NCBI RefSeq assembly: GCF_000380165.1
Contig: NZ_KB904665.1
Location: 1 to 64,000 of the forward strand
Direction: 5' to 3'
Length of the DNA stretch: 64,000 nt
From: Wenjunlia vitaminophila DSM 41686
GTDB lineage: Bacteria; Actinomycetota; Actinomycetes; Streptomycetales; Streptomycetaceae
The notes under the pieces were generated by a model. That model was not told where the DNA came from. It saw nothing but the letters and a program-made list of their open reading frames with translations, and ran no database searches. This document shows positions 22,706-39,558 of the stretch, in pieces; within the stretch, counting starts at the first letter, position 1; every line of letters begins with the position of its first letter. The position numbers and the translations under genes were made by a program.

Positions 22706-24745
22706 TCAGCCCGCATTGGAGTACTTGCCCCTGCTGAGTTGTTCCAGCCGGCGCCGCACGGCGCGCAGGGCGCCTCCGGTCGCGTCGGGGACGGCGAGCC
22801 GCAACGCCACCAGTTGCGGGCCGATCCGCAGCGCCGCCGCCACGTCGTCCACCCGCTGCCACACGTGGTGCGCGTTGTTGACCGCGTTCACGGCGTCGGG
22901 GTGGTCGGCGCTCTGCCAGGTGAGTCGTCCCTGGGCCGCGGTGATCCACCGCTCGGCGGCGCGCACCAGCTCCCCCGACTCGTAGGCGATCTGGGCCTGG
23001 GCCTCGATGACGTACACCAGCTCCATCGAGTCGGGACCGTAGGTCCGCAGGGCGTACTGCTCCCACCCGGCGGCGAGCGCCGCGGCCTCGCTGAACCGCC
23101 TGGCCCGCAGGGCCTGCCCGATGGCGGCGCGCGGGTCGTGCGCCGGCTGCGGGGGGACCGCCGGCGGGGCGGCGGGGGGCCGGGGGGCGCGCTCGCTCGG
23201 GGCGGGCGGCGCATCGGGCTCGGCCAGGGCGGGCGCCGGGGCCGAGGGCACCGGGGGCGAGGGCGGTGCGGCGACGGCGGGCGGAGCCGGGGGCATGGGA
23301 GGAAGCGGTGGGAGGGAGGCGTGCGGGGGGCCGGCGGGCGCGAAGCCGGGGGGCAGGGCGGTCGGGTGCCGGGGGGTGGGCTCGGGAGCGGGGGGCGGGG
23401 ACTGCTGCGGGGCCGGTTCGACGTCACGGACCGATTCGGCGTCGGTCAGCGGTGCGCCGGGGAACGCGGTGTCGGCGGGCCGAGCGGGGAGGGGCTCCGG
23501 GTCGGCGGGAGCGGGATCGGACGCGGCCGTTCCCGTGTGGTCCGCGGTCACGGGGGAGAAGTCGCCGTGCTCTGGGGTCGAGGTGTCGGACATAGCTGGT
23601 CCCCCGTCAGTTGGGTAGTGGTGGTGCGGGTCTCCCGGCTCCGGGTCCGTGGTGGACCCACCGTGGGTGAGTGGTTCGTCCGAATACGGTCCCGGGGTGG
23701 GATCGTCGCGCAGCGTCGGAAGATCGTCCAGGTCCAGGCCGTCGCCCGGGTCCAGGCCCGGGCTCAGGTCCGGGTTCGGGCCCGCGTCCGTCGGCAGGCC
23801 CCCTCCCGGGGACGCTCCCGGGACCGGACCACCGTCGGCGTCCTGACCGACACCGCCGTGCGGCCACCAGTCAAGCTCAGAACCAGCCAGGTGTGACGTG
23901 GGACGGGGTGGGCCAACCGGGGCGGGCCGTACCCACGGGCCCCCGAAGAGGTCCGACGCGGGCGCGGAGGACCACGCCGGTGCGGTGGCGGTGGCCGACG
24001 CCCCAGGCTCCCCCGGCCCCTGCGCGAGGGTCCCCGCGGGCGCCGCCGGGACCCCGCCCGGCGACGGGGTGGGCGTGCCCGGGGTGCCGGTCCCTGGTTC
24101 CAGCAGCAGCACCGTGGAGGTGCCGAGGCCGGTCCGCCCGGCGGCGTGCAGGTCGGCGAGCGGGGGCCGGGTCCCGCGTTCCCTGAGCATCGCGGCGAGG
24201 GCCCCGGTGTAGCCGGGGGCGTCGCCCTCCCCCCGGCCCCCGGGCGGGACCACGGCACCCCAGACCGGCAGGTCGTGCGCGAGCTCCACCGGATCGATGC
24301 GGGACCACGCCTCCTTGTCCGCGACCAGGTCGGCGATGACCGTGGTGCTGCCGGGCCTGCGTCCGCGCAGTTCGTTCGAGAGCCACTCCCAGGGGAAGGC
24401 CGTGTACCGCACCGTCAGGGCGGACGTCTGCGCCAACGCCAGGTGGGGGCGCCGCTGTTTGCGGTCCACGGTGAGCCGCCCGGCGACGTACACCAGCAGC
24501 GGGCCGGGTGTGCCCGCGGCGGTCCGCACATGGGTGAGCAGGGCCTGCGGCTGGGCCGGGTCCACCACCCGTATCACGTCCACCGGGGCGCTGGTGCCCA
24601 CCAGCAGCGAGGGAGGCACGGCGGCCAGTCCCGCCAGGGACTCCGTCCGTTCGGGGGTCCTCTTCCGCCGACCCGGCGGCATCACGGATATCAGCAGCGC
24701 GCAACCGCGTCCGCCGCCTTCTCCCGTCACCCTGCTCATCCCCAT
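22706..24745 (-). CDS. Pro-rich protein with degenerate caspase-like N-terminus and helical C-terminus, 679 aa
   Basis: I cannot assign this to a named family. Residues 1-200 show alternating strands in caspase order: GPLLVYVAGR where an active enzyme has a G-H-G strand, then TTVIADLVADKEAW where D-x-C would be; neither His nor Cys is there. Residues about 210-560 are a Pro/Gly/Asp-rich linker. The last 120 residues are helix pairs with a TPR-like look (IGQALRARRFSEAAALAAGWEQYAL; ELVYVIEAQAQIAYESGELVRAAERWI). The start is ATG 24745 or 24739. It is divergent from the active caspase-like gene with 81 bases between them, so it probably belongs to the same system as regulator or adaptor. Confidence 0.55.
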   Translation of the reverse strand: MGMSRVTGEGGGRGCALLISVMPPGRRKRTPERTESLAGLAAVPPSLLVGTSAPVDVIRVVDPAQPQALLTHVRTAAGTPGPLLVYVAGRLTVDRKQRRPHLALAQTSALTVRYTAFPWEWLSNELRGRRPGSTTVIADLVADKEAWSRIDPVELAHDLPVWGAVVPPGGRGEGDAPGYTGALAAMLRERGTRPPLADLHAAGRTGLGTSTVLLLEPGTGTPGTPTPSPGGVPAAPAGTLAQGPGEPGASATATAPAWSSAPASDLFGGPWVRPAPVGPPRPTSHLAGSELDWWPHGGVGQDADGGPVPGASPGGGLPTDAGPNPDLSPGLDPGDGLDLDDLPTLRDDPTPGPYSDEPLTHGGSTTDPEPGDPHHHYPTDGGPAMSDTSTPEHGDFSPVTADHTGTAASDPAPADPEPLPARPADTAFPGAPLTDAESVRDVEPAPQQSPPPAPEPTPRHPTALPPGFAPAGPPHASLPPLPPMPPAPPAVAAPPSPPVPSAPAPALAEPDAPPAPSERAPRPPAAPPAVPPQPAHDPRAAIGQALRARRFSEAAALAAGWEQYALRTYGPDSMELVYVIEAQAQIAYESGELVRAAERWITAAQGRLTWQSADHPDAVNAVNNAHHVWQRVDDVAAALRIGPQLVALRLAVPDATGGALRAVRRRLEQLSRGKYSNAG

Positions 24746-24826
24746 AAGCAGCACGGTATCCGCTGGTGGGGTCGGCCGCCGGACTACCGTGGTTGACGCG
24801 CCACCGTGGGAGACAGGGGGAAACGG

Positions 24827-25948
24827 ATGTCCACAGACCCGTCGCGCACCAGGGCCCTGGTGGTGGGTGTCGAGAGCTACGGGGGCGAGCCCGGCTGGCA
24901 GCTCGACGGCCCGGTCAACGACGCCCTGACCTGGGCACGTTGGCTGCTCACCGCGGGAGTCCCGCCAGACCGGGTCACCCTGCTGCTCTCCCCGCTGGAA
25001 CGCAACACCCGGCACGCCGAACGCGCGCCGGTGGCGCACCGGCCCGCGGACCGGGAGACCGTCCACCAGGCACTGTTCCGCGAACTGCCGGCCGCGGGAG
25101 GAGACCTGCTGTTCGTGGCCTGGTGCGGGCACGGCCTGGTGAGCTCGGACCGCCGCCACCGGCTCCTGTACGCGGACGCCGCGCCGGACGACGTGCGGGC
25201 CCTGGACCTGGACGCCGCCCTGACCGCCTACCGCTCGGCGCTGGTGCCGGGGTTCCCCGAGCAGGTGTGGCTGGCCGACGCGTGCGCGGTGGACGCCGAC
25301 CCGGGGGCCCTGCGCCCGGACCCGGTCCCCGCGGGGCGGGCCACCCCGCGGCCCGGGCAGTGCGCGGCGTTCGCCTGCGCCCCCGACGGTTCGCCGCGCA
25401 ACGGGGTGGTCACCCGCCAGGGAGCACTGACCGCGCAGGCGCTGAGCCTGCTCACCTGGCCACCGGACACCGATCGGCTGCTCACCGCGCTCGGGGAGCG
25501 CCTGTCCCCCGGGGCCCCGGGGGACCCGCGGCCCCGCGGTTACTTCTGGCGCCACGGGCCGAGCCGCCCGGCGCCGCCCGTGGCCACCGTCCCGCCCCCA
25601 CCGCAACCAGGACCACCGCCCCGCCGCTCCCCTCGCCCCGGGCTGAACCAGCGCAGACGACTGCTCGAGGCGCTCGAGGCGGTGCCCGCGGTCGCCGAAC
25701 CGGCGTCCCGCGAGGTGGTGCTCCAGCAGCTCCCCCGGTCCATCCGCGGCAGCCTGCCGAGGTCCAACGTCACCCGGCTCGACCTGCTGGGCCTGCTCGA
25801 CACCTGTCTCGCGTTCCCCGACGGCCTAGTGCACCTCTGGACGGCGATCGGCATGGTGGACCCCGGCACATCCGCGTTCCGCGCGTTGCGTGAGGTGCTC
25901 GGGGAGTTTCCCAGTTTCGCCCCGGAGCAGGTCGATGACCTCGAATAA
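24827..25948 (+). CDS. Caspase-like protease with C-terminal effector-associated domain, 373 aa
   Basis: Residues 1-200 are a caspase/peptidase C14 domain: RTRALVVGVESYGG (strand 1), LDGPVNDALTWARWL, then the catalytic His in CGHG (His102) and catalytic Cys in LADAC (Cys153). Residues about 272-373 form a helical domain (RRRLLEALEAVPAVAEPASREVV to LLGLLDTCLAFPDGLVHLWTA) that matches the effector-associated domain 2 (EAD2) pattern used in NTP-dependent conflict systems for homotypic docking. ATG 24827 has the site GGGGGAAACGG. It heads a plus-strand set with the peptide and HExxH genes. Inferred role: suicide effector protease. Confidence 0.82.
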   Translation: MSTDPSRTRALVVGVESYGGEPGWQLDGPVNDALTWARWLLTAGVPPDRVTLLLSPLERNTRHAERAPVAHRPADRETVHQALFRELPAAGGDLLFVAWCGHGLVSSDRRHRLLYADAAPDDVRALDLDAALTAYRSALVPGFPEQVWLADACAVDADPGALRPDPVPAGRATPRPGQCAAFACAPDGSPRNGVVTRQGALTAQALSLLTWPPDTDRLLTALGERLSPGAPGDPRPRGYFWRHGPSRPAPPVATVPPPPQPGPPPRRSPRPGLNQRRRLLEALEAVPAVAEPASREVVLQQLPRSIRGSLPRSNVTRLDLLGLLDTCLAFPDGLVHLWTAIGMVDPGTSAFRALREVLGEFPSFAPEQVDDLE

Positions 25949-26074
25949 CGCGGTCCGACCGGAGGAATGCATGGACAAGGATGTCCGAGACGCAGGGTTT
26001 CCGGCCTGATGGCGGAAGGACATCATGGAAGAGCGGGTCGGTGACGACCCGCATGCTGGGAGGGCAGCGGCACG

Positions 26075-26308
26075 ATGCATCAGTCCAGGACCGCCATCGA
26101 GTCAGAACTTCTCGATCTCGGGGGAGTAACGCTTGAGCAGCTACGTGCGCTGGACGACCCCGAACGGGAGAGAAACAAGCAGCGGCTGTTGCAACGGCTC
26201 AACCACCTCGACACCAGCCTTGGGGATAGCGCGAACAGCAAAATGGCCCGGCCGTGCCTACCCGGGAAGGCCAGCTCGTGCACAATGACGCGCCTTCGGC
26301 CCGTGTGA
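26075..26308 (+). CDS. 77-aa peptide with FxsA-like leader, candidate RiPP precursor
   Basis: ATG 26075 follows GGGAGGG. Residues 8-45 (ESELLDLGGVTLEQLRALDD, then a long basic helix with QRLLQRLNHLD) closely resemble the leader of FxSxx-COOH (FxsA) peptides, which carry a D-L-x-G-[VL]-[ST]-L-E-x-L-R-x-L block. The tail (SANSKMARPCLPGKASSC then TMTRLRPV) does not end in F-x-S-x-x, so the core differs from canonical FxsA. The TGA overlaps a GTG that opens the HExxH gene (GTGA at 26305-26308), tying the peptide to that enzyme. No radical SAM maturase is in the window. Confidence 0.6.
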   Translation: MHQSRTAIESELLDLGGVTLEQLRALDDPERERNKQRLLQRLNHLDTSLGDSANSKMARPCLPGKASSCTMTRLRPV

Positions 26309-28200
26309 TCCACCATTCCTGGCACCGGTTGTCCGAGTCCGCCTTCGACGCCCTCGCCGGTGGCGCGGGAGACGCCGCCACACTCCGCCAGTTGTGGGCC
26401 GCGGAACGCAGCCACCGTCTCCTCCTCCTCGATCTGCTCATGGACGTCCAGGCCCGTGAGCCCACGGCGACGGGTCCGCTGGCGCCGGCCGAATCGGCCT
26501 GGCAACTCCTGGTGGCGGCGCAGCGACGGGACGGCGCAGCGGTGGAGGAGACGCTGTTGTTCCCGGAGACGGGCCTGTGGCTGGCCCGGGTGCTGCGCCG
26601 GCTCAGGGGGGCGCCGGCCGGTGCCGTCCCGCTCTGGGCGGACGTCGGACAGTTGCACGTCATGGCCGCCGCGGTCGCCGTCCGGGCCGGCCTCGACTTC
26701 TCGTTGTCCGTTCCTGCGCGCTCCGGCACGGTCTGGCTGCCCGGCCTCGGGCGCGCGGTGCTGCCCGGGCTGCCCCGGTGGGACACCGCGCAGGTGACGC
26801 ACACGGCGACGGGGCGGCTCCGCGTGTCGGCGCGCACCGGACAGGTCGTCGTGTCCGGCGCCCTGGACCGGCCGGCCGACGGCTGGCAACCGCCCCGGCT
26901 GCTGACCCTCGATCCGGACGGCCCGGGCAGCAGGGTGTTCCTGGACGACATCAGCTTCCACCGGGTCTCCTCGACGCAGGCGTCACCGCCGCTGAAGCGG
27001 CTGCCGGACCGAACCGCCGCGCACTGGGCCGAGGCACTGCGGGCCGCTTGGCGGCTGCTGGCCGACGCGGACCCGCAGTCCGCCCTCGACGTGGCCGAGG
27101 TGCTGCGCTCCGTCGAGCCGGTCCCCAGTGAGGACGACCACAGCACCCGGAGCGCCTCCTCCGGGGACGCCGTGGGAAGGCTCGCCACCACGCAGCCGGA
27201 CACGCCGGCCCAGCTCGCCGCGGTGCTGGTGCACGAGGTGCAGCACAGCAAGCTCAATGTGCTGATGCACCTCTACGCCCTGCACGGCCCGGAGGCCGAA
27301 CCCCGGCTCTACGCCCCCTGGCGGAACGATCCGCGCCCGCTGCGCGGCATGTTGCAGGGGGTGTACGCGTTCACCGGGGTGACCAGGTTCTGGCGCGGCT
27401 GGGCGGGCTCCGGCCGGGAGCCCGAGGCGAAGGACGCGCTCGCCTGGTTCGAGTTCGCCCTGTGGCGGCGGCAGTTGCTGCGGGTGCTCCCCTCGCTGCG
27501 GAACGACCCCGAGCTGACGCCGCTCGGCCGCCGGCTGGTGGAACGGCTCACCGCCACCGTCAGCCGTTGGGGCGACGACCCGGTCCCGGCACCGGTCCTG
27601 GCCCTGGCCCGTGACGCGGCGGACGACCACGCCACGACCTGGCGGCTGTACCACCTGGTCCCGGACCCCGACCTGGTGGCCGCCCTGGCCGACGCCTGGT
27701 GCGACGGCACCGCCGTTCCCGAGGCGCCCTTGGGCCACCGGGACTCCCGCCTGCGGCCCGACCCCGGGGCGTCCCTGCTGGACCGGCGGGCCGCCCTGCT
27801 GCGGCTGAGGCTGGGCGAACCGCTGCTCTTCGACAAGCTGGTCGCCTCACCCGAGGAAGTGGCGACCGTGGTCCGCGGCGCCGTCCCCGCCGACCTGCAC
27901 CTGGCGTCCGGCGACGCGGCCACCGCGGCGCCCCAGTACACCCGGCTGATCGCCACGGGCGAGGACCCGGACGGGGCGGGGTCCGCCGCCGGCGCCGCGG
28001 CGGCCTGGGCGGGGCTCGCCCTGGCCGCGCGTCGGGCCGGTCAGCGGGAGGCGGCACAGGCCCTGCTGACCGGGCCGGAGGTGGTGCGGGCGGTGTACCG
28101 CGCCGCCTGGCGGCGGGCCGGACGGGCACCGGACCCGCTGCGGCTCGCCGGTTGGCTCCACGGCCCGCTCGGCGGGCGGGTCACCGGCGGGGGCGGTTGA
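26305..28200 (+). CDS. HExxH-motif putative peptide beta-hydroxylase, 631 aa
   Basis: The start region (HHSWHRLSESAFDALAGGAGDAATLRQL) and H310-E-V-Q-H314 within VLVHEVQHSKLNVLMHLYALH identify the HExxH putative peptide-modification family, now named aKG-HExxH-type peptide beta-hydroxylases; in FxsBH proteins the same domain is fused to a radical SAM enzyme. Here it stands alone with one Cys only, so there is no Fe-S cluster. GTG 26305 was chosen because it overlaps the peptide stop; GTG 26254 and 26278 are alternatives deeper in the peptide gene. The C-terminal third is helical and repeat-like. Predicted substrate: the 77-aa peptide. Confidence 0.75.
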   Translation: MIHHSWHRLSESAFDALAGGAGDAATLRQLWAAERSHRLLLLDLLMDVQAREPTATGPLAPAESAWQLLVAAQRRDGAAVEETLLFPETGLWLARVLRRLRGAPAGAVPLWADVGQLHVMAAAVAVRAGLDFSLSVPARSGTVWLPGLGRAVLPGLPRWDTAQVTHTATGRLRVSARTGQVVVSGALDRPADGWQPPRLLTLDPDGPGSRVFLDDISFHRVSSTQASPPLKRLPDRTAAHWAEALRAAWRLLADADPQSALDVAEVLRSVEPVPSEDDHSTRSASSGDAVGRLATTQPDTPAQLAAVLVHEVQHSKLNVLMHLYALHGPEAEPRLYAPWRNDPRPLRGMLQGVYAFTGVTRFWRGWAGSGREPEAKDALAWFEFALWRRQLLRVLPSLRNDPELTPLGRRLVERLTATVSRWGDDPVPAPVLALARDAADDHATTWRLYHLVPDPDLVAALADAWCDGTAVPEAPLGHRDSRLRPDPGASLLDRRAALLRLRLGEPLLFDKLVASPEEVATVVRGAVPADLHLASGDAATAAPQYTRLIATGEDPDGAGSAAGAAAAWAGLALAARRAGQREAAQALLTGPEVVRAVYRAAWRRAGRAPDPLRLAGWLHGPLGGRVTGGGG

Positions 28201-28302
28201 CGCCCACGCCCCGGACCGCCACCGTTCCCCCGGCCCCGGCACCACGCCCGCCGCTGGGGCGGCGGTCACCCCGTGCCGCGTCCCCCGGCGGGGAGGAGCG
28301 GA

Positions 28303-31300
28303 TCACAGCGGCAACGGGTCCGCGTCGCAGTTGGACCGCCGCCAGGCGATCGCGTCGGCGAGGGCGGGGTGGTGCTCGCCGAGGTGACGGCGGATGCCCT
28401 CCACCGCCTGCTCGTGCAACGCCTGGGCCTCCTCGGTGTGGCCGAGCGCCTTCAGGTCCTGCGCCAGGTTGCTCTTCAGCGCCAGCACCGAGGGGTGCTC
28501 CTCGTTCAGGACCGTGATGCTCGCCTCCAGGGTCCAGCGGTCGAGTTCCGCCGCCGCGGCGACCTCCCCCTGCGCGAACATGTCGCTGGCGAGGTTGGTG
28601 CGGCACACCAGGGCGTCCGGGTGGTGCTCGCCGAGCCGCTCCACACAGCGGTCGAGTACCGACTCGTTGAGCCGGCGGGCGGCGTCCACCCGGTTCAGCA
28701 ACCGGTAGGTGACCGCGAGGTCCATGTCCGCCGAGAGCGTGTTGGGGTGGTCCGGTCCGAACACCTCGGCGTACAGGTCACGGGTCCGCTGTCCCAGGTG
28801 CAGCGCCTCGTTGAGGTCACCGAGCTGCCGCAGGTCCACCGACGCGTTGAGCGAGGCGACCAGCGCGTCCGGGTGACGGTGTCCGTAGCGCTTGGTCAGG
28901 GCCCTGCGGACCGCCTCGGTCAGCTCCGACGCACGGTCGTGGTAGCCGGCCTTGCGCAGCGACACCCCGAGTCTGGCCGTGGCGCGCAGGGTGGCGAGGT
29001 TCTCCTCGCCGACCGCCCTGCGGTACTTGTCCACGATCCCCTCGAAGAGCTGCGCGGCCATCGCGTACTCGCCGAGGTTGCGCCGGTCCAGGGCGACGGA
29101 GGTCTCGGTGAGCAGTCCGCTCAGCGACTCCTCGCCGTACATCTGCGCCTTGCGCTGCCAGGTCAACTGGTCGAGTTCCAGGGCCCGCCGGAACTCGCCG
29201 TTGACCCGCAGGCAGACCCCGAGGTTGTGGGCGTGCAGCAGGGTCTCCGGGTCGTCCTCGCCGAAGGCCCGCAGCGCCCGGTCGTAGACCTCCTGGTCCA
29301 GTGCCAGGGCCGCCCGGTAGTCGCCCTGGGCCCTGCGGTCGACGGCCACCTGCCCCATGACGCGGAGCAGTTCCTCGTCGGTGTCGCTGACCGCCTCCCG
29401 CTGGAGCACGTCCAGCATGGCCTCGCCCACCGCGGCGGCCTGGGAGTAGCGCCCCATCCCCCACAGCACGAACCGCAGTTGCCGCCCCATCATCAGGCCC
29501 TGCCGGTCGGCCTCGCCGAAGGCGTCCCGCCAGATGTCGTAGGCCCGCTGGGCGAACTCCCGGGCGCTCTCGTGCTCGCCCCAGTAGTACAGGTACTCGG
29601 CGACGCTGTAGACCGCCTGGCGGACGACCGGGGATTCCGACCGCATCGCCTCGGAGACCACCACGTGCGGGTACAGCTCCTTGAACCGGGGCCAGTGCTC
29701 GGGGTCCTGGGGGTCGCGCGGGGTGCTGGCGGCGAGCAGCAGGTGGGCGCCGCGGCGCATCCTGGCGCGCTGTTCCTCGGACATCCGGGCGATCAGCACG
29801 GCCTGGACCAGCCGGTGCATCTCGATGGAGTTGGTCCGGTGGTCGATCTTGGCGAGGGAGTAGCGGTTGATCTCCCGGATGGCCCGGCCGAGGCGCAGCG
29901 GGTCGGTCAGCGCCCGGTCGAGGTCGGGGGCGATGGGTTCCACCGCGGCTCCGGAGAAGAGCGTGCGGGAGATGGGCTCGGGGGCGAAGTACGCGCAGAC
30001 CTGGAGGAGTTGCAGCGCGGCGGCGTTCTTCCGCTCGAGGTGGTCAAGGGAGACGTTCCAGGCCGTGGCGACGGTCTCCTCGTAGTGGGTGGGCGGGGAG
30101 ACGGTCATCAGCTCGGCCCGCTTCTCCTCGAACAGCCGCAGGTACTCGGCCGCGGGCATACCCGTCTCGGCCCGCCAGGCGGACGCCTGCTCCACCGCGA
30201 GCGGCAGGTCGCCGAGGATCTCGGCGAGTTGGTTCGCCTCCTCGGTGGGGAGGTCGGGATTGCGGCGCTGGAGGAGGTGGATGCTCTCCTCCCGTTCGAA
30301 GACGTCGACCTCGAGCGGATGGGCCAGGGTGTTCCACTGGGGATTGCGTGAGGTCACGAGAATGGAGCCGATCGGTCCGCTCCCGGGCGCGGTGGGAAAG
30401 TACTCCCGAACGGCTTCCGGGCTTTCCGCGTTGTCGAAAACGAGCAGCCAGCGACCATAGGGATTTCCGGTCCGCAGGGCCTCGAGAACGGCCGGCACCG
30501 CGGTGAGGGCCTCACCGGTGACCGGAAGGCGCAGCCGCTGGGCGAGTTCCACCAGGGCCTGGGCGATCTGGGTGGGCCGCTCCGCCGGAATCCACCAGAC
30601 GATGTCGTATTCGGTGGCGTGGCGGTACACGTACTCCAGGGCGAGTTGTGACTTCCCCACGCCGCCCATGCCGTGCAGGGCGTGCGGCAGCACGGCGGTG
30701 GGTCCCTCCCGAAGCCCGCTCTCGAGCTGGTCCAGCAGCTCCTCGCGGCCGGTGAACACCATGTTCCGCGGGGGCATGTTGCCCATGACGGCGGGGCGCA
30801 CCGCGATGTCCCGACCCGGGTGGGCAAGTGGTACGCCCTGGGCCGCCGGTGTCGCCATCGTGGTGCCTCCTCCGGGTTTGCTGGGACTGTCGTCGCCTCG
30901 GGGCGAGGGAACGGGCACCGGGCCGGGATTGTTCCGCATGTCGGGCGTTCCTGGGTAAGTCACTGTGCCAGAACCTTTGCCAATGAGTGGGACGGCATCG
31001 CCGGGGATATACGTCTGCGTCGATATGTCTATCGGATCGTCGGTGGACGAGATATGAGCTTCTATCAGGCCACGCAGTCGGCGAGCGCGATGCAGATGCG
31101 GACCGGAAAGCGCCTCCAGCACGGCGTGTTCCGCCAGCAGAAAACGCAGGTTCTCCCCGGTGACCTCAGGATCTCGGGAATGCTGGACTCCGTCCAGATG
31201 GAACAGCAGTTCCTGGGCCGCCTGGTTGCGCGGCGCCATGAATTCCGCTGCTTTCCGCAACGCCTTTTCTGTGGCCCTCCTGGTGCCCGCGGCGAGCAGC

Positions 31301-32883
31301 TCCTCACGTACGCCCCGGTGGAACAGGAAGGACCCCTCCCCGCCGAAGGACCAGGCGTCGACGAGGCCGCTCATCAGGAACTCGGCCAGATGGGCGGGGC
31401 CCGAGGCGGGCAGGGTGTGCCGCTGCACCACGGACATGATCGGCAGGTCCAGCTGCACCGCGGCCAACCGGGTCGCCAGGGCGAACGCCTGCGGGGAGGC
31501 CCACACCCGGAACCGGGCGACCCGCTCCGCCGGACTCATCGGCCGTGCCGCGGCCGGCTCCGCGTCGTCCGCCCCCGGTCCCTGCCACGGGCCGGCGAGC
31601 ACGGCGGCGACCTCCGTCCACCGGGGTCCGTTACCGGCCACGAAGCGCGCCCACGGGGCCAGCCAGGAACCGGCGACCTCCAGCACCGGCACGGGAACCA
31701 GCCGGCGGCGCTCCGCCTCGCCCAGCGACGCCCAAGGCAGCGGCGGCTCCGCGAACTCCCACTCCACCTGCCCGTTGCCGGACCTCGGTCCGGACGCGTG
31801 CAGCCGGACCCGCTCCGGGAACAGGCCGGTGCGGTGCCACAGTCGTTGGGGGAGGGCGTGCAGCAGCGCCAGGGGCTGGTGCCGGCCCCAGTCGCGCAGC
31901 AGGCTCAACACCGCCCCGGTCCGCCACCCCCGGGAGAGGCCGTCGGTGAGCACCAGGACCATCCGGCGTCCGTGCGGATCGACCAGGCTCCGCCAGGGCT
32001 GCGCCGGCGCCCCTGGCGAGGCCCCGCGCAGCTGCACCCCGTCCGGGGCCGCGGCGTCGCTGTCCAGCCGGCGCAGCGCGACGTGGCGGAAGCCCCCGTA
32101 ACGGTGCAGCACCCGTGCCAGGTGCCGCGCGGTGGCCCGCCACACGGCCATCCGCGGGCCGCCGTCCACCACGAGCACGGCGTCCCACCGGGCCTCGGCG
32201 GCCGGGCGCAGCACCGGGGGCAGCCAGGTGGAGGTCGCCAGGCGCTCGGCCGTGAGGTCCTCGTCCACCTCCAGGGTCCGCCCGGAGCCGACGCGTTCGC
32301 GCAGCGACCGCAGGGCTCGGCCGAGCGCCGCCGCGTCCACCCCCCGCTCGGTCCTGGGGGGCACCGGGAACGCCCGGCGGTGCGGGGCCGCACCGCGCTC
32401 CCCGCTGCCCGTGGAGACGACCCCGACCAGGGCGTTGGGGGCGCGTGACGTCCAGCCCCCGGGGGACGGGTCGGCGGGTCCGGCCCGACCGCCCGGCTCA
32501 TCTTCGGACGCCCCGCCGGGACCGGCACCGCCGGGGTCAACACCGTCAGGGTCCGGGGTTCCGGGGTCCGGGGCGCCGGTCGGGGCGTCCGTGCTGGTGG
32601 GCCGGGTGGCGCCGTGGGGCGCGGCGGTGTCCTCTGGGGCGTCGTCCACCCTGGTGGGCTCCGCTTCCTTCCCGTCCGGTGAGGCGTCGGGGTCGCGGGG
32701 ACGGACGGAGGTGACGGTGGGCTCGGCGAGGCCGGGGTGGTGCTCGGCGAGCCACAGCGCGTCGGCCACCTCCCACCAGCACAGCGCGGCGACCGGCAGG
32801 CGCCCGGGGACCCGGTCGGAACCCGGGGCCTGTGCCCCGCGCCCCGACCCCGGTCCCTCGGACGCCGACGGCCGCCGGGTCAC
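28303..32883 (-). CDS. Degenerate vWA/SAV_2336-like, NB-ARC and TPR protein (FxsT-like), 1526 aa
   Basis: GTG 32883 overlaps the MoxR stop (GTGA). Residues about 232-420 look like a vWA fold (ARWDAVLVVDGGPRM, RMVLVLTDGLSRGW) in which the MIDAS D-x-S-x-S is replaced. Residues about 440-540 match the SAV_2336 N-terminal-related region (RVWASPQAFALATRLAAVQ). After a linker, an NB-ARC STAND NTPase spans about 715-1000 with P-loop GMGGVGKSQ (Lys744), Walker B LLVFDN and sensor ILVTSRNPQW. The last 480 residues are TPR repeats with many DHPNTL/EHHPDAL turns. This NB-ARC/TPR half resembles the FxSxx-COOH system TPR protein. Likely the sensor of the island. Confidence 0.78.
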   Translation of the reverse strand: MTRRPSASEGPGSGRGAQAPGSDRVPGRLPVAALCWWEVADALWLAEHHPGLAEPTVTSVRPRDPDASPDGKEAEPTRVDDAPEDTAAPHGATRPTSTDAPTGAPDPGTPDPDGVDPGGAGPGGASEDEPGGRAGPADPSPGGWTSRAPNALVGVVSTGSGERGAAPHRRAFPVPPRTERGVDAAALGRALRSLRERVGSGRTLEVDEDLTAERLATSTWLPPVLRPAAEARWDAVLVVDGGPRMAVWRATARHLARVLHRYGGFRHVALRRLDSDAAAPDGVQLRGASPGAPAQPWRSLVDPHGRRMVLVLTDGLSRGWRTGAVLSLLRDWGRHQPLALLHALPQRLWHRTGLFPERVRLHASGPRSGNGQVEWEFAEPPLPWASLGEAERRRLVPVPVLEVAGSWLAPWARFVAGNGPRWTEVAAVLAGPWQGPGADDAEPAAARPMSPAERVARFRVWASPQAFALATRLAAVQLDLPIMSVVQRHTLPASGPAHLAEFLMSGLVDAWSFGGEGSFLFHRGVREELLAAGTRRATEKALRKAAEFMAPRNQAAQELLFHLDGVQHSRDPEVTGENLRFLLAEHAVLEALSGPHLHRARRLRGLIEAHISSTDDPIDISTQTYIPGDAVPLIGKGSGTVTYPGTPDMRNNPGPVPVPSPRGDDSPSKPGGGTTMATPAAQGVPLAHPGRDIAVRPAVMGNMPPRNMVFTGREELLDQLESGLREGPTAVLPHALHGMGGVGKSQLALEYVYRHATEYDIVWWIPAERPTQIAQALVELAQRLRLPVTGEALTAVPAVLEALRTGNPYGRWLLVFDNAESPEAVREYFPTAPGSGPIGSILVTSRNPQWNTLAHPLEVDVFEREESIHLLQRRNPDLPTEEANQLAEILGDLPLAVEQASAWRAETGMPAAEYLRLFEEKRAELMTVSPPTHYEETVATAWNVSLDHLERKNAAALQLLQVCAYFAPEPISRTLFSGAAVEPIAPDLDRALTDPLRLGRAIREINRYSLAKIDHRTNSIEMHRLVQAVLIARMSEEQRARMRRGAHLLLAASTPRDPQDPEHWPRFKELYPHVVVSEAMRSESPVVRQAVYSVAEYLYYWGEHESAREFAQRAYDIWRDAFGEADRQGLMMGRQLRFVLWGMGRYSQAAAVGEAMLDVLQREAVSDTDEELLRVMGQVAVDRRAQGDYRAALALDQEVYDRALRAFGEDDPETLLHAHNLGVCLRVNGEFRRALELDQLTWQRKAQMYGEESLSGLLTETSVALDRRNLGEYAMAAQLFEGIVDKYRRAVGEENLATLRATARLGVSLRKAGYHDRASELTEAVRRALTKRYGHRHPDALVASLNASVDLRQLGDLNEALHLGQRTRDLYAEVFGPDHPNTLSADMDLAVTYRLLNRVDAARRLNESVLDRCVERLGEHHPDALVCRTNLASDMFAQGEVAAAAELDRWTLEASITVLNEEHPSVLALKSNLAQDLKALGHTEEAQALHEQAVEGIRRHLGEHHPALADAIAWRRSNCDADPLPL

Positions 32884-34043
32884 GCCGGATCCGCCCCCTC
32901 GGTGCTCAGCGGGTGCCAGATCGAGCGCAGCACGGCCTGCCACTCGGCGTCGTCGCCGTCCTGGTAGCGGTAGGCACCGGAGGTGGCGAGGTGGGCGGCG
33001 TTCAGTAACTGGTCGGCGGCCAGCCCGCCGGCCTGTTCGCTGCGCAGCACGAACTCGCTGACCAGTTGCTCCCTGAAGTCCCCGAGCCGGTTGGAGAAGT
33101 GCGCCGCGACCAGCTCGCCCAGCGCCTCGGGCCCCGGGTCGGGCATGTCCAGGCGCAGGCAGCGGCGCAGGAAGGCCTCGGGGAACTCCCGTTCGCCGTT
33201 GGACGTCAGAACCACCACCGGGAAGGTGTGGGTGCGCACCACCCCGTCGCGGACCGGGGCGGTGCCGCCCGGGTCGGCGGTGTGCACGACCACCTCGGGG
33301 GACCGGTGCTTGACGCGCACCAGCGGCGGCACCTCGAACCAGCCGTCCTCGAAGAGCGTCAACAGGTCGTTGGGCAGGTCGGCGTCGCTCTTGTCGATCT
33401 CGTCGATCAGCAGGACCCTGGGCAGCCTGTGGGGCAGCAGCGCGGTGCCCAACGGGCCGAGCTGCACGAAGTCCCCGATGTCCGCCCCGAACTCCCGCGC
33501 GTCGTCGGCGCCCGGAGCACCGTCGGCCCGCTGCTGGGCGGCGTACCAGGCCTGACCTGCCTGCGCCCGGCCGATCACGTCGTACTCGAAGAGGCCGGAG
33601 GCGAGGGTGGTCCTGCTGGTCACCGGCCACTGGAGGACCCGACCCAGGCCGAGCTCCCGGGCGATCCGGAAGGCCAGCGCCGACTTCCCGACCCCCGGCC
33701 GGCCGGTGACCAGCAGCGGGCGGCGCAGCAGGATCGCCGCGTTCACCAGGCGGACCTCGTCCTCCGGCGGGCGGCGCACGGTGGCTCCCGGCGGGCCGAG
33801 CCGCCGGTCCGCCTCGTCGTCGTCGGGTGGCTGGGGCAGGCAGGGGCCCCCGCGGAAGGTACGCCACCGCGGCCCCTCCGGCCAGGTGCGTTGGTCGTGG
33901 GGGGTGGGCGGGAACGCCTCGCCGGTCCCCCGGTAGGGCAGCCCCGGGGTCCCCGGGCCGCCGGCCGCGGGGCCGTTGCCGCCGCCGCCCGGGGGGCGCC
34001 CGTCGGCGTTCCGCGGCGCTCCGTTGTCGTCCGGCGCGTTCAC
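32880..34043 (-). CDS. MoxR-family AAA+ ATPase, 387 aa
   Basis: Walker A GRPGVGKS (residues 114-121), Walker B LLIDEIDK (211-218), sensor 1 VVLTSNGEREFPEAF and the arginine-finger stretch FLRRCLRLDMP fit MoxR chaperone ATPases. About 95 Pro/Gly-rich residues precede the AAA core. GTG 34043 overlaps the VMAP-like stop, and its own TGA overlaps the GTG of the vWA/NB-ARC gene, so the three are translationally coupled. In vWA-MoxR-VMAP ternary systems this ATPase is the NTP-dependent core that remodels the partner proteins. Confidence 0.88.
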   Translation of the reverse strand: MNAPDDNGAPRNADGRPPGGGGNGPAAGGPGTPGLPYRGTGEAFPPTPHDQRTWPEGPRWRTFRGGPCLPQPPDDDEADRRLGPPGATVRRPPEDEVRLVNAAILLRRPLLVTGRPGVGKSALAFRIARELGLGRVLQWPVTSRTTLASGLFEYDVIGRAQAGQAWYAAQQRADGAPGADDAREFGADIGDFVQLGPLGTALLPHRLPRVLLIDEIDKSDADLPNDLLTLFEDGWFEVPPLVRVKHRSPEVVVHTADPGGTAPVRDGVVRTHTFPVVVLTSNGEREFPEAFLRRCLRLDMPDPGPEALGELVAAHFSNRLGDFREQLVSEFVLRSEQAGGLAADQLLNAAHLATSGAYRYQDGDDAEWQAVLRSIWHPLSTEGADPA

Positions 34044-35524
34044 TCGATCCCCCCTAGGAAAGTGGCGGGAGCGCTCGGGCCGCCGTCCAGGAGCTGCTCG
34101 GGATCATCGAAGATCACGGTGAGGTTCTTGATGACCGGGTTCTCCTTGACGGAAACGTCGCGCTTCCACTGTCGCGTACGCTCGGGAAGGTTGGCCAGAC
34201 CGCCTTCCGACATCGCTTCCTTGACCATGCTGTGGAACGCCTCGGAGCCGCTGTCCTCGCGGTGGTACACCAGCAGCGGCACCCCGTGTTCGAGCCCGAG
34301 CAGCACCTCCCGCGACCCCCGCCCCCTCGGGCCGCGCGGCGCCGCGCTCAGCACCATTCCCATGATCTCGTCCTGCCTGCCGATCTCCCCGTAGACCTCG
34401 CCGAGGTGTTCGTCGTCCGGCCGTCCGCCCGGGGTGCACCAGTGCAGTGCCGCGTTCGCCGGTACGTCGCTCCACCTGCGCCAGCGGCGGCGCCAGGCGT
34501 GGTGGTGCTGGCGCCGCTGCACCCGTTCGAGGCTGTGTATCCGTATGTCGGGATACCGGTGGATCATGGGCGTGGGGAATCCCTCGTTCGGGTTGAGGTC
34601 CCACCACTCGACCGGCTCGTCGAGGAGCTCCACCGGGAGGAAGAACTCCAGCACCACCTCGTCGGCCCGGGACTGCCACTCCTCCGCCATCGTCCTGAGC
34701 AGCCGGGCCACCGCGTGCGGCAGCTCGCCGCGGGCCACCGGGGTGTCGGGCACCCCGGGCTGGGGGTGGAGTTCGGCGGACTCGGTGTAGCGCACGCAGG
34801 AGGAGAGCCAGTACCGGGACCGGTCGCCCGGCCCGCGGCCCGGCGGGTCGCTGGGGGCGAGGTCGGGCGCGACCTTGATGTACGACCGGATCACCGCCGC
34901 CTGGAGGTCCCCACCGGGGTCCCACCCGCCGGGGCCGCGCCGCTCGGCGAGGTGGCCGCGGAGCCCGGCCACCTCGGCGGTGAGCCGCCACTGCTGCGCG
35001 AAGTGGTCGTTCCAGGCTCGGATCTCGCCCACCGCGGAGGCGGCCTCGGGCTGGTGGAGCAGGTGCTCGAGGAACGCCATGCCGGGGGGCAGGCCACCCG
35101 GCGGGGCGTTGTGCACCGACAGGTGGACGAAGGCGTCCCAGGCGGTGACGGACGACGCGGGCAGCCGCACCCGGCCGAGGGTGACGTCGGCGACGAGCAC
35201 GGACAGCCCGGGCAGGTGGAAGTCGAGGGCGCGGTGCAACGCCGTCCAGTCCCGCCCTCCGTACAGCTCGAGGGCCTCCCAGGTGTCCAGCAAAGGACGC
35301 AGTCGGTGGGCCACCGCCTCCGCGAGGAACTCGGTGATCTCCACCAGGGTGGCCAGGCCCTGGTCGAGGTCGGCGCACCGCCGCACGGCCTGGTGGAACT
35401 CCTGCCGTGCCGTGGGGAGTTCGACGAGCTCCAGGCCGTCCACGGCGTCAACGAGCTCACCGCGCCACTGCTGCCGACCCCGTGGGTCGGCCAGCGCCAT
35501 CGACTCCTCCAGTACCCCCACCAT
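34040..35524 (-). CDS. EAD/VMAP-C-like protein of vWA-MoxR ternary system, 494 aa
   Basis: Residues 1-90 are helical (VLEESMALADPRGRQQW, LVDAVDGLELVELPTARQEF, LATLVEITEFLAEAV), the layout of effector-associated domain 2, like the C-terminus of the caspase-like protein. Residues about 320-490 follow the VMAP-C (vWA-MoxR associated protein C-terminal) pattern: FFLPVELLDEPVEWWDL, RYPDIRIHSLERVQRR, WRRRWRRWSDVP, a strand with IMGMVLSAAP, and LLGLEHGVPLLVYHRE. ATG 35524 is the likely start; the open frame runs to 35671 but the extra residues are Arg-rich and shadow-like. It is the first gene of the minus-strand operon. Confidence 0.78.
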   Translation of the reverse strand: MVGVLEESMALADPRGRQQWRGELVDAVDGLELVELPTARQEFHQAVRRCADLDQGLATLVEITEFLAEAVAHRLRPLLDTWEALELYGGRDWTALHRALDFHLPGLSVLVADVTLGRVRLPASSVTAWDAFVHLSVHNAPPGGLPPGMAFLEHLLHQPEAASAVGEIRAWNDHFAQQWRLTAEVAGLRGHLAERRGPGGWDPGGDLQAAVIRSYIKVAPDLAPSDPPGRGPGDRSRYWLSSCVRYTESAELHPQPGVPDTPVARGELPHAVARLLRTMAEEWQSRADEVVLEFFLPVELLDEPVEWWDLNPNEGFPTPMIHRYPDIRIHSLERVQRRQHHHAWRRRWRRWSDVPANAALHWCTPGGRPDDEHLGEVYGEIGRQDEIMGMVLSAAPRGPRGRGSREVLLGLEHGVPLLVYHREDSGSEAFHSMVKEAMSEGGLANLPERTRQWKRDVSVKENPVIKNLTVIFDDPEQLLDGGPSAPATFLGGIE

Positions 35525-35656
35525 GTCCCCCAGGACCCTTCGCCGAGCAGGGTCTAAGAACCGCCTTGGCACATGCCTTCGCCCCCTTGCACCGCGTACG
35601 TCGGACCACCGGGTCGCGACGGGTACGCGGTGGCGCCGATCCGCTCGGGAGTGATC

Positions 35657-35684
35657 AGCGTAAGTGCCCAACTCCCTTGTCGAA
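35657..35684 (-). promoter_or_regulatory. Candidate housekeeping promoter of conflict operon
   Basis: On the minus strand TTCGAC, a 16-base spacer and TACGCT resemble an HrdB-type promoter (TTGAC-N16-18-TAGPuPuT). It would start transcription about 125 bases before the VMAP-like ATG and drive the three-gene operon. Confidence 0.35.
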
Positions 35685-35719
35685 CAGCACCGTTACAGGG
35701 TCTTCGTATCAGGTCTTTA

Positions 35720-37054
35720 TCACGTGCGGTACTCGGGAATGGCTCGCGCCAGCAGTCGGTACACCTCGGGGTTGGCGAAGTACGACGTGTGGGCCGCCCA
35801 GACCGGATGGCCGTTGTCCACCGCGATGTCCCTGACCTGGTCCCCGAAGACCCCGGAGGCCAGGAAGGACAGCAGGTCACGGGGGTCGTAGATGTTGATC
35901 CACGGGGGGAACCCGGCGGGCAGCCCGGCGCCGAACGGGCGCGAGGGCAGGGCGTCGAGCTCGTACAGCAGCGGCGCCTGGGAGCCGACGGTCACCAGCA
36001 GGTCCACCGGGGGTACGGAGGGCGCGGAACCGTCCGGTCCGCCATCCGGCCCGAGTACCCCGGACGCCAGCAGGTCGAACGCGACGACTCCGCCGAGGCT
36101 GTGGCCGAGCAGCACCACCGGGCGGGGGAGTTCCCGCAGCCGGTCGGCGACGTAGGCGCGCACCGCCCGGCCGCGCACCAGGTAGCTGAGCACGTCCCCG
36201 GCGAACCCCAGGGTGAGTCCGGTCAGGGCGCCCCGGCGGGCGGTCACAAGACGCGACGCCAGACGGCGGTCCCGGATGCGGGAGGACAGGCTCAGCGCCG
36301 CGGACACCGCGCCGCCCAGACCCCGGGGTTCGCCGCCGAGGCCGTCCACCAACGCGTCCACCACGGCCTCCCGGGTCTCCCGGGGGACCGTGTCGGGCCC
36401 GCCGGGGACCCGGGCCAGGCCCCAGGCGGTCAGCGCCCGGGCCACCAGTCGGGGCAGCCCGTCCGCCGCCGCCACGTTCGCGGCCCCCAGCGCCCGGGAG
36501 AACGCCTCGGAGTCGAGCAGGGCGGCCACGGCGGAGTCCAGCCCCCCGGCCCCGCCGCTCGACCCGCCGCACGGCTCGCCTGCCGCGCCCTGCGGCGGGC
36601 CGGCCGGCCCGGCGAGCAGGACCTCGTTCAACCCGGCCGCCGCCCAGGCCGCGCGGACCGCGATGTCCCGCCCGAGGGCGGCGGCGCGGGCCCGCAGCGC
36701 CTCACCGGCCCGGGCCGGACCCGACGCCCGGTCCGGCCGTGCCGACAGCACGAACAGGTCCAGTTCGGCCCAGGGGTCTGCGTACAGCAGTGCCCAGCGG
36801 GCCCTCTCGTCGTCCCGCTCCCGGCGCGGCCAGCGCGCCGGACCCGACGGCGCACCGGGCGGGAGCCCCGGTATCGAGGCCCCGGCCGCCCGCAGGTGCG
36901 AGCCGAGGACCTCGCCCCACGCGCAGGGTTCGACGCGGACGTCGGGACGGACCGCGGCGAACCCGGACCGCACCGCGCCCAGCGTCGCGGTGTACCCGGG
37001 TTCGCGCACGCCGGTTCCGTGCACCAGCAGGATCGTCGCCCCAGTCGCAGCCAT
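35720..37054 (-). CDS. Alpha/beta hydrolase (lipase-like), 444 aa
   Basis: The N-terminus ILLVHGTGVREPGY is the oxyanion strand of an alpha/beta hydrolase and VVLLGHSLGGVVAFDLL holds the G-x-S-x-G nucleophile elbow at about residue 320. A catalytic His is plausible in DNGHPVWAAHTSYF near the end. A 250-residue, partly Ala/Gly-rich insertion separates strand 1 from the elbow. ATG 37054 lies 13 bases after the aldehyde dehydrogenase stop, so the two are probably one transcript. It may be a lipid-active enzyme; whether it belongs to the neighbouring conflict island is open. Confidence 0.75.
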   Translation of the reverse strand: MAATGATILLVHGTGVREPGYTATLGAVRSGFAAVRPDVRVEPCAWGEVLGSHLRAAGASIPGLPPGAPSGPARWPRRERDDERARWALLYADPWAELDLFVLSARPDRASGPARAGEALRARAAALGRDIAVRAAWAAAGLNEVLLAGPAGPPQGAAGEPCGGSSGGAGGLDSAVAALLDSEAFSRALGAANVAAADGLPRLVARALTAWGLARVPGGPDTVPRETREAVVDALVDGLGGEPRGLGGAVSAALSLSSRIRDRRLASRLVTARRGALTGLTLGFAGDVLSYLVRGRAVRAYVADRLRELPRPVVLLGHSLGGVVAFDLLASGVLGPDGGPDGSAPSVPPVDLLVTVGSQAPLLYELDALPSRPFGAGLPAGFPPWINIYDPRDLLSFLASGVFGDQVRDIAVDNGHPVWAAHTSYFANPEVYRLLARAIPEYRT

Positions 37055-37067: not shown

Positions 37068-38525
37068 TCAGAACGGGAAGACGCTGCGACCGTGCTGGAC
37101 GGATATCCATTTCAGCGTGGTGAAGGCCTCCACGGTAGACTCGCCGTTCAGCCGGCCGACACCGGAGGACTTCTCCCCTCCGAACGGCACGATCGGCTCG
37201 TCGTGGATGGTGGCGTCGTTGACGTGGACCATCCCGGTCTCGATCCGCTGGGCCACCCGCACCCCGCGCTCGACGTCCCGGGTGTGCACCGCTCCGCTGA
37301 GTCCGAACGGGGTGTCGTTGGCGAGTTCCACCGCCTCGTCCTCCCCGTCGAACGGGATGATCACGGCCACCGGCCCGAAGACCTCCCGGCGTAGGAGCGG
37401 GGCACCGGCCGGGACGTCGGTGAGCACGACGGGGTCCACCATGGTGCCCTCCGTCCTGCCGCGCAGCAGCACCGTGGCGCCCATCGCCACCGCCTGGTCC
37501 ACCTCCGCGGTGATCCGCTCGGCCTGGATGGCGTTGATCAGGGGGCCCAGGTGGGTCCCGGGGTCCCGGGGGTCCCCGACCCGCAGCGTCCGGACCCTGG
37601 CCACGAACCGCTCGGTGAACTCCTGCCGCACCGAGCGGTCCACCAGCAGCCGGTTGGCGGCCATGCAGACCTGGCCGGAGTGCGCGAAACGGCTGAACAC
37701 GGCTGCGTCCACGGCGTAGTCGAGGTCGGCGTCGTCCAGCACGACCAGCGCGCTGTTGCCGCCGAGCTCGAGCACCGAGCGTTTGAGGTGCGCCGCGACG
37801 ACCTGGGCCACGTGCCGGCCCACCCGGTCGGAGCCGGTGAACGAGATGACCTCGGGGACGGGGTGTTCCAGCAGGGCGTCGTCGATCTCGGCGATGTCGG
37901 TGACGACGACGTTGAGCAGACCGGGAGGCAGCCCGGCGTCGGTGAGCAGCCGCGCGATGAGGGTGCCGCCGACGATGGGCGTGTCCTGGTGCGGCTTGAG
38001 CACCACGCCGTTGCCGAGCGCCAGTGCCGGGGCGACCGACTTCATCGACAGCAGCAGCGGGAAGTTGAACGGGCTGATCACCCCGACGACGCCCACCGGC
38101 AGCCGGTACAGGCGGTTCTCCTTGCCGTCCACCGGCGAGGGCAGGATGCGCCCCTCGGCGTGCAGCGCGACCTGCATCGCCTCCCGCAGCACGTCCTTGG
38201 TGAGGGAGATCTCGAACGCCGCCTTGACGTGGGTGCCGCCGAGCTCGTCGATGATGGTCCCGGTGATCTCCTGTTCCCGTTCGGCCAGGAGGGCCAGGGC
38301 CCGCTCGAAGACCAGGCGGCGGGTGTAGGGGCTGGTCCGGGCCCAGGCGCGCTGGGCGCGTTCCGCCGCGCGGTACGCCTGGTCCACGTCCTGCACGGTG
38401 GCCACCCGGATCTCGGCGAGCTTCGCCCCGTTGTACGGGTTGAAGTCCACGATGTCCCACGACCCGCTACCGGCTCGCCACTGACCGTCGATGTACTGGC
38501 AGGCTAATTCCGACAAGTTGGGCAT
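37068..38525 (-). CDS. Aldehyde dehydrogenase, 485 aa
   Basis: NAD(P)-dependent oxidation of an aldehyde to an acid. Motifs: FNFPLLLSMKSVAPALALGNGVVLKP, the FTGSDRVG loop, catalytic Glu in LELGGNSALVVL and catalytic Cys in SGQVCMAANR. Length and wording are closest to benzaldehyde/vanillin-type dehydrogenases, though the substrate is not fixed by sequence. ATG 38525 was preferred over 38561 because GGGAAGG lies upstream and the family starts near MPNLSELACQYIDGQW. Confidence 0.92.
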   Translation of the reverse strand: MPNLSELACQYIDGQWRAGSGSWDIVDFNPYNGAKLAEIRVATVQDVDQAYRAAERAQRAWARTSPYTRRLVFERALALLAEREQEITGTIIDELGGTHVKAAFEISLTKDVLREAMQVALHAEGRILPSPVDGKENRLYRLPVGVVGVISPFNFPLLLSMKSVAPALALGNGVVLKPHQDTPIVGGTLIARLLTDAGLPPGLLNVVVTDIAEIDDALLEHPVPEVISFTGSDRVGRHVAQVVAAHLKRSVLELGGNSALVVLDDADLDYAVDAAVFSRFAHSGQVCMAANRLLVDRSVRQEFTERFVARVRTLRVGDPRDPGTHLGPLINAIQAERITAEVDQAVAMGATVLLRGRTEGTMVDPVVLTDVPAGAPLLRREVFGPVAVIIPFDGEDEAVELANDTPFGLSGAVHTRDVERGVRVAQRIETGMVHVNDATIHDEPIVPFGGEKSSGVGRLNGESTVEAFTTLKWISVQHGRSVFPF

Positions 38526-38691
38526 GGGAGTAACCTTCCCGTCAGTCCCCCGCGCGGACACATGACACGTGGTGCATGAGCGGTGGTGCAGTCCGGACCC
38601 GCCGGCGGCGGTCGGCCGAGGCGGGTCTGCCGCCCCAGCGATCCGCTGAATCCGGAGGATCGACCTGACGTGGTCTCAGGCTACTTGTGGA

Positions 38692-39558
38692 TCAGGTCCG
38701 TTCGAGCATAGTGCGCAGGAGGGCGACGCTCCGCTCCGGGGGCTCGCTGTCCGCGACCAGCCGGTCCATGGCCCGCGCGTACTGGCCGACCTCCTCGGGC
38801 TTGTCCAGGTAGAGCGCCCCGGTGAGCTGCTCGAGGTAGACCACGTCCGGCAGGTCCGGTTCGGCGAAGCCGAGGATGGTGAAGGCCCCGCTCTCCCCGG
38901 CGTGACCCCCGAACGCGAACGGCATGACCTGAATGGTCACGTTGGGCCGCTCGGCGAGCTCGAGCAGACGGGCGAACTGGGCCCGCATCACCTCGACCCC
39001 GCCGAACGGGCGGCGCAGCGCGGCCTCGTCCAGCACGGCGAGGTACCGCGGGGCGCCCTCGCAGACCAGCAGTTCCTGCCGCTTCATCCGCAGCGCGACC
39101 CGGCGCTCCACCTCCTGTTCCGGCGCGGTCGGCTGCCCGAGGGAGACCACCGCGCGGGCGTACTCCTCGCACTGGAGCAGGCCGGGCACGTACTGCAGCT
39201 CATAGGTCCGGATCTGTGAGGTGGCCTCTTCCAGCCCGACGTACGTCTGGAACCACACCGGCAGCACGTCGGCGTAGGAGTGCCACCACCCGGCGGAGCT
39301 GGCGTCGCGGGCCAGCCGCAACAGGGCCGCGCGCTCGGTCTCGTCGGTGACCCCGTAGAGGGTCAGCAGGTCGGAGACGTCCCGCTCCTTGAAGCTCACC
39401 CGCCCCAGCTCCATGCGGCTGATCTTCGACTCGGAGGCCCGGATGAAGTAGCCGGCCGCCTCACGGGTGATGCCGTGGGACTCACGGAGTCTGCGCAGTT
39501 GGGAGCCCAGCATGATGCGGCGCACCGTGGAGCTGCGGCTTGGCTGCCATGCGCTCAT
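38692..39558 (-). CDS. XRE-family regulator with DUF5753, 288 aa
   Basis: Residues about 15-75 are an XRE helix-turn-helix (LGSQLRRLRESHGITREAAGYFIRASESKISRMELGRVSF); the rest is DUF5753 (WFQTYVGLEEATSQIRTYELQYVPGLLQCEEYARAV, TIQVMPFAFGGHAGESGAF, DVVYLEQLTGALYLDKPEEV). Such proteins work with DUF397 and RsbW/AbaA-like partners to tune antibiotic production and development in streptomycetes. It is a paralogue of identical length to the next gene (39766-40632), arranged head to tail. ATG 39558 fits the family start. Confidence 0.9.
   Translation of the reverse strand: MSAWQPSRSSTVRRIMLGSQLRRLRESHGITREAAGYFIRASESKISRMELGRVSFKERDVSDLLTLYGVTDETERAALLRLARDASSAGWWHSYADVLPVWFQTYVGLEEATSQIRTYELQYVPGLLQCEEYARAVVSLGQPTAPEQEVERRVALRMKRQELLVCEGAPRYLAVLDEAALRRPFGGVEVMRAQFARLLELAERPNVTIQVMPFAFGGHAGESGAFTILGFAEPDLPDVVYLEQLTGALYLDKPEEVGQYARAMDRLVADSEPPERSVALLRTMLERT

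Follow-up and report, generated by a model that had tools for sequence, protein, structure and literature searches.

An immunity-like cluster of Wenjunlia vitaminophila resembling the described VMAP ternary systems, with an EAD2-bearing caspase-like protease and a predicted HExxH peptide oxygenase

The first 64,000 nucleotides of contig NZ_KB904665.1 of Wenjunlia vitaminophila DSM 41686 (assembly GCF_000380165.1), the whole of which is referred to here as the window, contain a group of genes arranged in two convergent arms. The minus-strand arm codes for a VMAP protein with an EAD2 domain, a MoxR-like ATPase and a vWA-NB-ARC-TPR protein, and the plus-strand arm for a caspase-like protease with EAD2, a small peptide and an HExxH protein. 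Combining an ATPase complex with a caspase-like protease and an enzyme for peptide modification, the locus looks like one copy of an already described class of immunity-like clusters; the system probably extends from 24827 to 37054 and belongs to the VMAP ternary conflict systems of the published peptide-processing type. An earlier reading of the same DNA (the first-pass annotation) had named caspase, EAD, HExxH, NB-ARC, MoxR and VMAP-C signatures in this region, and these are present, with matches in Pfam, NCBIfam and PADLOC.

The genes of the ternary core follow one another on the minus strand in the order VMAP (35524-34040), MoxR (34043-32880) and vWA (32883-28303), and the tight overlaps previously noted were verified as two of 4 nt each, VMAP/MoxR and MoxR/vWA. 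The VMAP protein has Pfam matches to EAD2 (E-value 2.1e-8, 35285-35521), VMAP-M0 (1.6e-28) and VMAP-C (PF20028, 2.5e-43). The MoxR-like AAA ATPase (AAA_5, 3.2e-6) possesses the Walker motifs GRPGVGKS (Walker A, 33681-33704) and LLIDEID. Of its two published motifs, PsWRxa is present near the N-terminus as PRWRTF (PxWRxF), with Arg replacing the expected small residue, and WxhapG was not matched, the sequence being GLPYRG with Gly instead of Trp. The protein also matches the NCBIfam MadB-type ATPase at 3.6e-14, which is under the cut-off of that model. The 1526-residue product of the third gene is matched by NF041121 (SAV_2336 N-terminal, 3.5e-109) and NF040586 (FxSxx_TPR, 7.8e-260) as well as by NB-ARC and TPR models of Pfam, and has its P-loop at 30649-30672. 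For the model of its vWA-like domain (predicted local distance difference test, pLDDT, 88.4), vWA domains head the list of similar folds with a middling best Z of 8.0, other folds reaching Z 6 to 7, and nothing was found by Foldseek at E <= 0.001; the vWA assignment is thus based on NF041121, the gene order and the predicted fold taken together. As regards other VMAP proteins, the same genome has a second VMAP-C protein (G000:C38:51904-52575, L124), which is without EAD2, and a VMAP search across genome contigs gave a single Frankia locus (L064, 29% identity).

The caspase-like protease is encoded on the plus strand at 24827-25948 (PADLOC caspase, 8.3e-13), with an alternative GTG start at 24806. 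Counting from the ATG at 24827, the numbering His102/Cys153 given in the first-pass annotation is correct, and this His and Cys are preserved in 17 of 17 aligned proteins, the one from the window among them. The protein of the window has no match to Pfam Peptidase_C14 at E-values up to 0.1; a homologue in related locus L046 matches that model at 1.2e-7. At its C-terminus the protease has an EAD2 domain (25667-25900, 3.4e-24). The 6.43 Mb genome contains EAD2 exactly twice, in this protein and at the N-terminus of VMAP, the two lying about 9.4 kb apart, and the three other loci of the same layout that were tested (L032, L033 and L099) likewise have EAD2 on both proteins. Since the genome has only these two EAD2 domains, one in each arm, it is likely from the sequences that they form a dedicated docking pair between caspase and VMAP.

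The HExxH gene (26278-28200, plus strand, alternative GTG start at 26254) has a product with a TPR-like C-terminal part, the motif HEVQH (27232-27246) and the motif PWRNDPR (27316-27336). It matches the curated alpha-ketoglutarate HExxH hydroxylase model TIGR04267 at 2.8e-50. Against the PDB, the sequence matches 22nu (3e-30) and ChlH (8s5f, 3.1e-10), these values becoming 2e-95 and 1e-23, respectively, when 41 relatives are combined into a profile. The predicted structure (pLDDT 92.7) is matched by Foldseek to 22ob (SjiH, 4.9e-21) and to ChlH (1e-8), and all five chains found at E <= 0.001 are alpha-ketoglutarate HExxH oxygenases. HExxH and, for the PWRxDxRP signature of such oxygenases, PWRxDPR are both preserved in 41 of 41 proteins, and the arginines of the latter may hold alpha-ketoglutarate. 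From sequence and predicted fold, the protein is therefore assigned as an alpha-ketoglutarate HExxH oxygenase and not as a zincin peptidase. Kaur et al. (2020; PMC7159879, cited here for the passages on VMAP systems) named the gene a zincin-like metallopeptidase, proposing an enzyme that merely cuts the precursor. That proposal has the HExxH motif itself in its favour, as well as the report that the oxygenase PflC is proteolytic once the leader is absent (cleavage data of PMC12636437). However, it is very improbable given the hydroxylase model match, the five oxygenase chains and the universal PWRxDPR, with BepA as the closest peptidase at E 0.11 (the lack of a match is in itself no exclusion of a peptidase), so that the "hydroxylase" label of the first-pass annotation is to be preferred to the published one. 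The enzyme is like SjiH (22nu/22ob) and ChlH by sequence and predicted fold, and is likened to PflC and PosC (PMC12636437) and to PesO (PMC13060819) by their published descriptions, not by sequence. As with the oxygenases of ribosomally synthesized and post-translationally modified peptides (RiPPs) of this family, it is encoded beside a precursor; unlike them, it stands alone as an enzyme, has a TPR-like C-terminal part and is linked to a ternary conflict system.

The neighbourhood of this enzyme was surveyed in 40 stretches of 19.9 kb (related loci, numbered L) around its best HExxH relatives from a search over 147 genomes of the order, presumably of Streptomyces-like actinobacteria. These are the first 44 places minus the window, one place inside the stretch of L043 and two on contigs G124:C244 and G046:C192; genomes G141, G096, G060 and G119 contribute two loci each. 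As the loci are the top-ranked places, all counts apply to that part of the HExxH family closest to the window enzyme rather than to HExxH genes at large, and they take in only genes inside the stretches. In 32 loci a fused vWA-NB-ARC-TPR gene is found within the stretch around the HExxH gene (31 flagged, plus L043); in L074 it is cut by the stretch edge. It is absent in seven, namely L065, L076 and L080-L084. Within this last group, L076 has a natural fusion (L076:5594-10951) of an HExxH oxygenase domain to an FxSxx_TPR-like NB-ARC-TPR part (240.8 bits; model cut-off 300), L083 has an FxsB domain and HExxH in one frame, L081, L082 and L084 have long frames whose first part is without NCBIfam match at E <= 1e-5, and L080 has a short HExxH protein. 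A fusion of radical S-adenosylmethionine (SAM) enzyme and HExxH domain is credited to Morishita et al. (2024) in PMC12636437. MoxR was matched in 31 of the 40 stretches and caspase in 16, a count that omits L044, which was matched through EAD2 alone; the VMAP protein of L044 was detected by Pfam only. In the one other genome of the genus that was examined, L099 has the full layout, with hydrolase, VMAP, MoxR and vWA/NB-ARC/TPR genes convergent with HExxH, peptide and caspase genes.

The two arms thus occur together, as the first-pass annotation had supposed in placing them in one island, and the EAD2, VMAP-M0 and VMAP-C matches and the 32/40 co-occurrence support its reading, in which a vWA-MoxR-VMAP conflict system is coupled through EAD to a caspase and has a RiPP-like accessory. 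The two refuting conditions named there, arms that rarely co-occur and a lack of EAD or VMAP profile matches, do not hold. The view that the arms are unrelated was rejected on this co-occurrence and on the EAD2 pair, which spans both. A related proposal, which takes the peptide arm for a common RiPP cluster that makes a secreted bioactive peptide and adjoins the ternary system by chance, is very unlikely. A precursor with an alpha-ketoglutarate HExxH oxygenase is indeed what the PflC, PosC and PesO clusters contain (cluster descriptions of PMC12636437 and PMC13060819). Against it, besides the shared presence of the arms in relatives, none of the eight locus proteins scanned is a transporter, intergenic gaps are below 200 nt, and the arms are bridged by the only two EAD2 domains of the genome. 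The distances between HExxH proteins also correlate with the distances between vWA-NB-ARC-TPR proteins (rho 0.82, n=32, leaving out L043 and L084) and with those between caspases (rho 0.92, n=17), with none of 1000 permutations as high in either case, in a comparison that ignores the species tree. The exclusive EAD2 pair, the tracking distances and the HExxH/NB-ARC-TPR fusion of L076 together argue that the arms work together.

The small peptide of 77 residues is encoded at 26075-26308 on the plus strand and has a conserved leader followed by the core-like TSLGDSANS (26213-26239). It matches frames in the same position in L032 (2e-12), L033 (1e-4), L034 (8e-7) and L099 (6.5e-5). Candidate precursor frames with an LxDLxxV-type leader were found by pattern ahead of the HExxH gene in 32 of the 40 loci, some of which may be chance frames, L049 and L084 giving two each. 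Their C-termini are of several kinds, with 13 of the 32 loci with candidates having [AG]-R-x-[DE] at the extreme end. Among 21 further loci resembling the L046 enzyme, 17 have a candidate precursor; the tail is [AG]-R-x-[DE] in 16 of them, and the seventeenth (L120) is apparently a chance frame; 16/17 is not an independent frequency, since this second set was chosen by enzyme likeness. Over both sets such tails are found in 27 distinct loci, two being shared. In addition, L050, L070 and L079 have candidate precursors with paired cysteines ahead of the HExxH gene, a further kind of core.

The peptide of the window is without the [AG]-R-x-[DE] tail and, from the leader motif on, has none of the FxSxx, RxD or four-acidic-residue types of VMAP-linked peptide as these are worded in the passages cited from PMC7159879. 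Its TSLGDS fits a loose core pattern of eight other loci, examples being VNFGGS, VNFAGG, STIAGS and NSVAGS, and in L035 and L072 the loose core pattern and the RxD ending occur together. As for the tails themselves, the cleavage data of PMC12636437 have PosC and PflC cut at ARMD, with Ala as first residue of the site being cut, Gly partly cut and Gln, Ser and Val uncut, and the two form a small cluster in the network of that paper. The resemblance of the tails of the sister group, whose peptides end in [AG]-R-x-[DE], to the PosC/PflC site is no more than suggestive, PflC and PosC being likened here by tail and not by sequence.

In comparison with known systems, the first-pass annotation had considered the combination of a ternary core with a RiPP-like peptide and hydroxylase to be undescribed. 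This does not stand, as Kaur et al. (2020), in the passages cited, already have VMAP ternary systems with a "metallopeptidase", an FxSxx-like peptide and an AP-ATPase-TPR part fused to vWA. The window shares with these the VMAP-MoxR-vWA order with NB-ARC-TPR fused to vWA, the HExxH gene with a small peptide gene, the caspase with an alpha/beta-hydrolase, and the same EAD on VMAP and partner. It differs from the systems of those passages in that its peptide is in none of the three motif types, its EAD2 caspase is encoded some 8 kb away from VMAP, as the outermost gene of the convergent arm, and its HExxH protein is by fold an oxygenase and not a peptidase. The FxsA-FxsB cyclophane systems share the NF040586 FxSxx_TPR partner and a leader-like peptide start; unlike them, the window has no FxSxx C-terminus. 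An FxsAB cyclophane system was rejected, since no FxsB radical SAM/SPASM protein over cut-off was found in the genome, the one weak match reaching 28.1 bits where the cut-off is 370.

A number of points weigh against placing the locus among the VMAP ternary systems as a working conflict system. An intact metal ion-dependent adhesion site (MIDAS) has the consensus DxSxS. In the window it is degenerate, being DGGPR (residue 240 of the vWA protein, codon at 32166), whereas most of the 33 other aligned rows have Ser or Thr as the final residue. An intact MIDAS is not a stated requirement in the cited passages of Kaur et al. The MoxR protein matches Pfam bpMoxR at E 0.07 only, and with PADLOC the caspase is the only strong match, MoxR being weakly matched to IetA (9e-4) and mad8 (5e-3). 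MoxR distances track those of the HExxH proteins less closely (rho 0.46, n=30, L043 and L084 dropped), and the omission of the species tree applies to all of the correlations. In the survey, VMAP was matched in 14 of 40 stretches, a low count which is partly explained by many stretches stopping short of VMAP and by its rapid divergence; L034 has no MoxR match, and L065 has an HExxH gene and a candidate precursor ending in AERID with no ternary partner in its 20 kb stretch. The 22 residues of the window peptide beyond the core (26240-26308), where L032 and L099 stop, overlap the start of the HExxH gene and may represent either a genuine tail or an alteration of the C-terminus. Lastly, no experiment is known to tie VMAP ternary systems to defence.

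The extent of the system also differs from the gene set at 22706-35524 proposed in the first-pass annotation, of which all but one gene stay. The gene at 22706-24745 (minus strand, start uncertain) is left out because it is without a match in all 40 related loci, and likewise in L099 of the same genus. Matches to its N-terminal part occur in 94 of the 147 genomes of the order (its own included), mostly one per genome, and this part shows a weak likeness to caspases (NF047832, 4.6e-6, far under the cut-off) in which the His and Cys seem by eye to be missing; a Pro-rich stretch and then, also by eye, a TPR-like end follow. Around 12 homologues of this gene, 32 filtered frames of the window were sought at E <= 1e-10; 11 of these stretches were matchless and the other, L096, matched solely two DUF5753-type regulator frames. 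At the other end, the alpha/beta-hydrolase gene at 35720-37054 (minus strand; Abhydrolase_6 4e-4, under the Pfam cut-off) is taken in as a member because a homologue is present in 16 of 16 loci with a caspase and in none of 24 without, which agrees with the rule in the cited passages of Kaur et al. that caspase pairs with alpha/beta-hydrolase. An aldehyde dehydrogenase gene (37068-38561, minus strand) lies 13 nt ahead of the hydrolase, and is itself preceded by two HTH_31-DUF5753 regulator genes (38692-39684 and 39766-40845, minus strand).

From this set of genes we infer a role in defence that would involve EAD2-EAD2 binding, cutting and oxidation. VMAP would act as the sensor of an invader and its EAD2 would bind that of the caspase, bringing the protease to the VMAP-MoxR-vWA complex, with MoxR as the remodeller of the complex. 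Proteolysis by the caspase and its alpha/beta-hydrolase partner could then free or activate the NB-ARC-TPR effector tethered to vWA. The HExxH enzyme would carry out an oxidation, dependent on Fe(II), alpha-ketoglutarate and O2, of the small peptide encoded just upstream, and the matured peptide would most likely be a ligand or signal for the NB-ARC-TPR protein, or a toxin under its control. A specific form of this is offered tentatively as possible, with the odds rather against it: the peptides are matured oxidatively, those of the sister group being cut in the backbone by the HExxH oxygenase at the small residue of [AG]-R-x-[DE], in the manner of PosC and PflC at ARMD, to give a C-terminally amidated product that either gates the NB-ARC-TPR protein or is under its control, and that of the window being hydroxylated at its TSLGDS-like core. 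Alternatively, the locus may serve to regulate development or programmed cell death in a multicellular bacterium rather than to ward off phage, with the peptide as an internal or colony signal. This is unlikely, yet the most serious of the alternatives to a conflict system; VMAP systems are tied to a multicellular habit (694 of 716 organisms in Table 1 of PMC7159879), and 111 of the 147 genomes of the order have an HExxH match of one kind or another, whereas VMAP and vWA evolve fast in the manner of conflict genes, according to the same source.

The kind of system is already known; this analysis adds the boundary corrections, the oxygenase assignment with its predicted fold, the EAD2 pair found nowhere else in the genome and the lead offered by the [AG]-R-x-[DE] tails. 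No literature joining VMAP systems to HExxH oxygenases was found in a search which left most subscription journals outside, and no experimental test of a VMAP ternary system was found in the literature examined, although such systems are widespread in multicellular bacteria. As a set for testing, the locus is compact: it has a single EAD2 pair and a single caspase whose His and Cys are intact, together with one oxygenase and one precursor. The assignment of the peptide enzyme as an oxygenase changes the choice of assay, and the sister-group tails are a pointer to a specific reaction and product. If the proposed maturation is true, activation of the peptide would depend on oxygen, iron and alpha-ketoglutarate.

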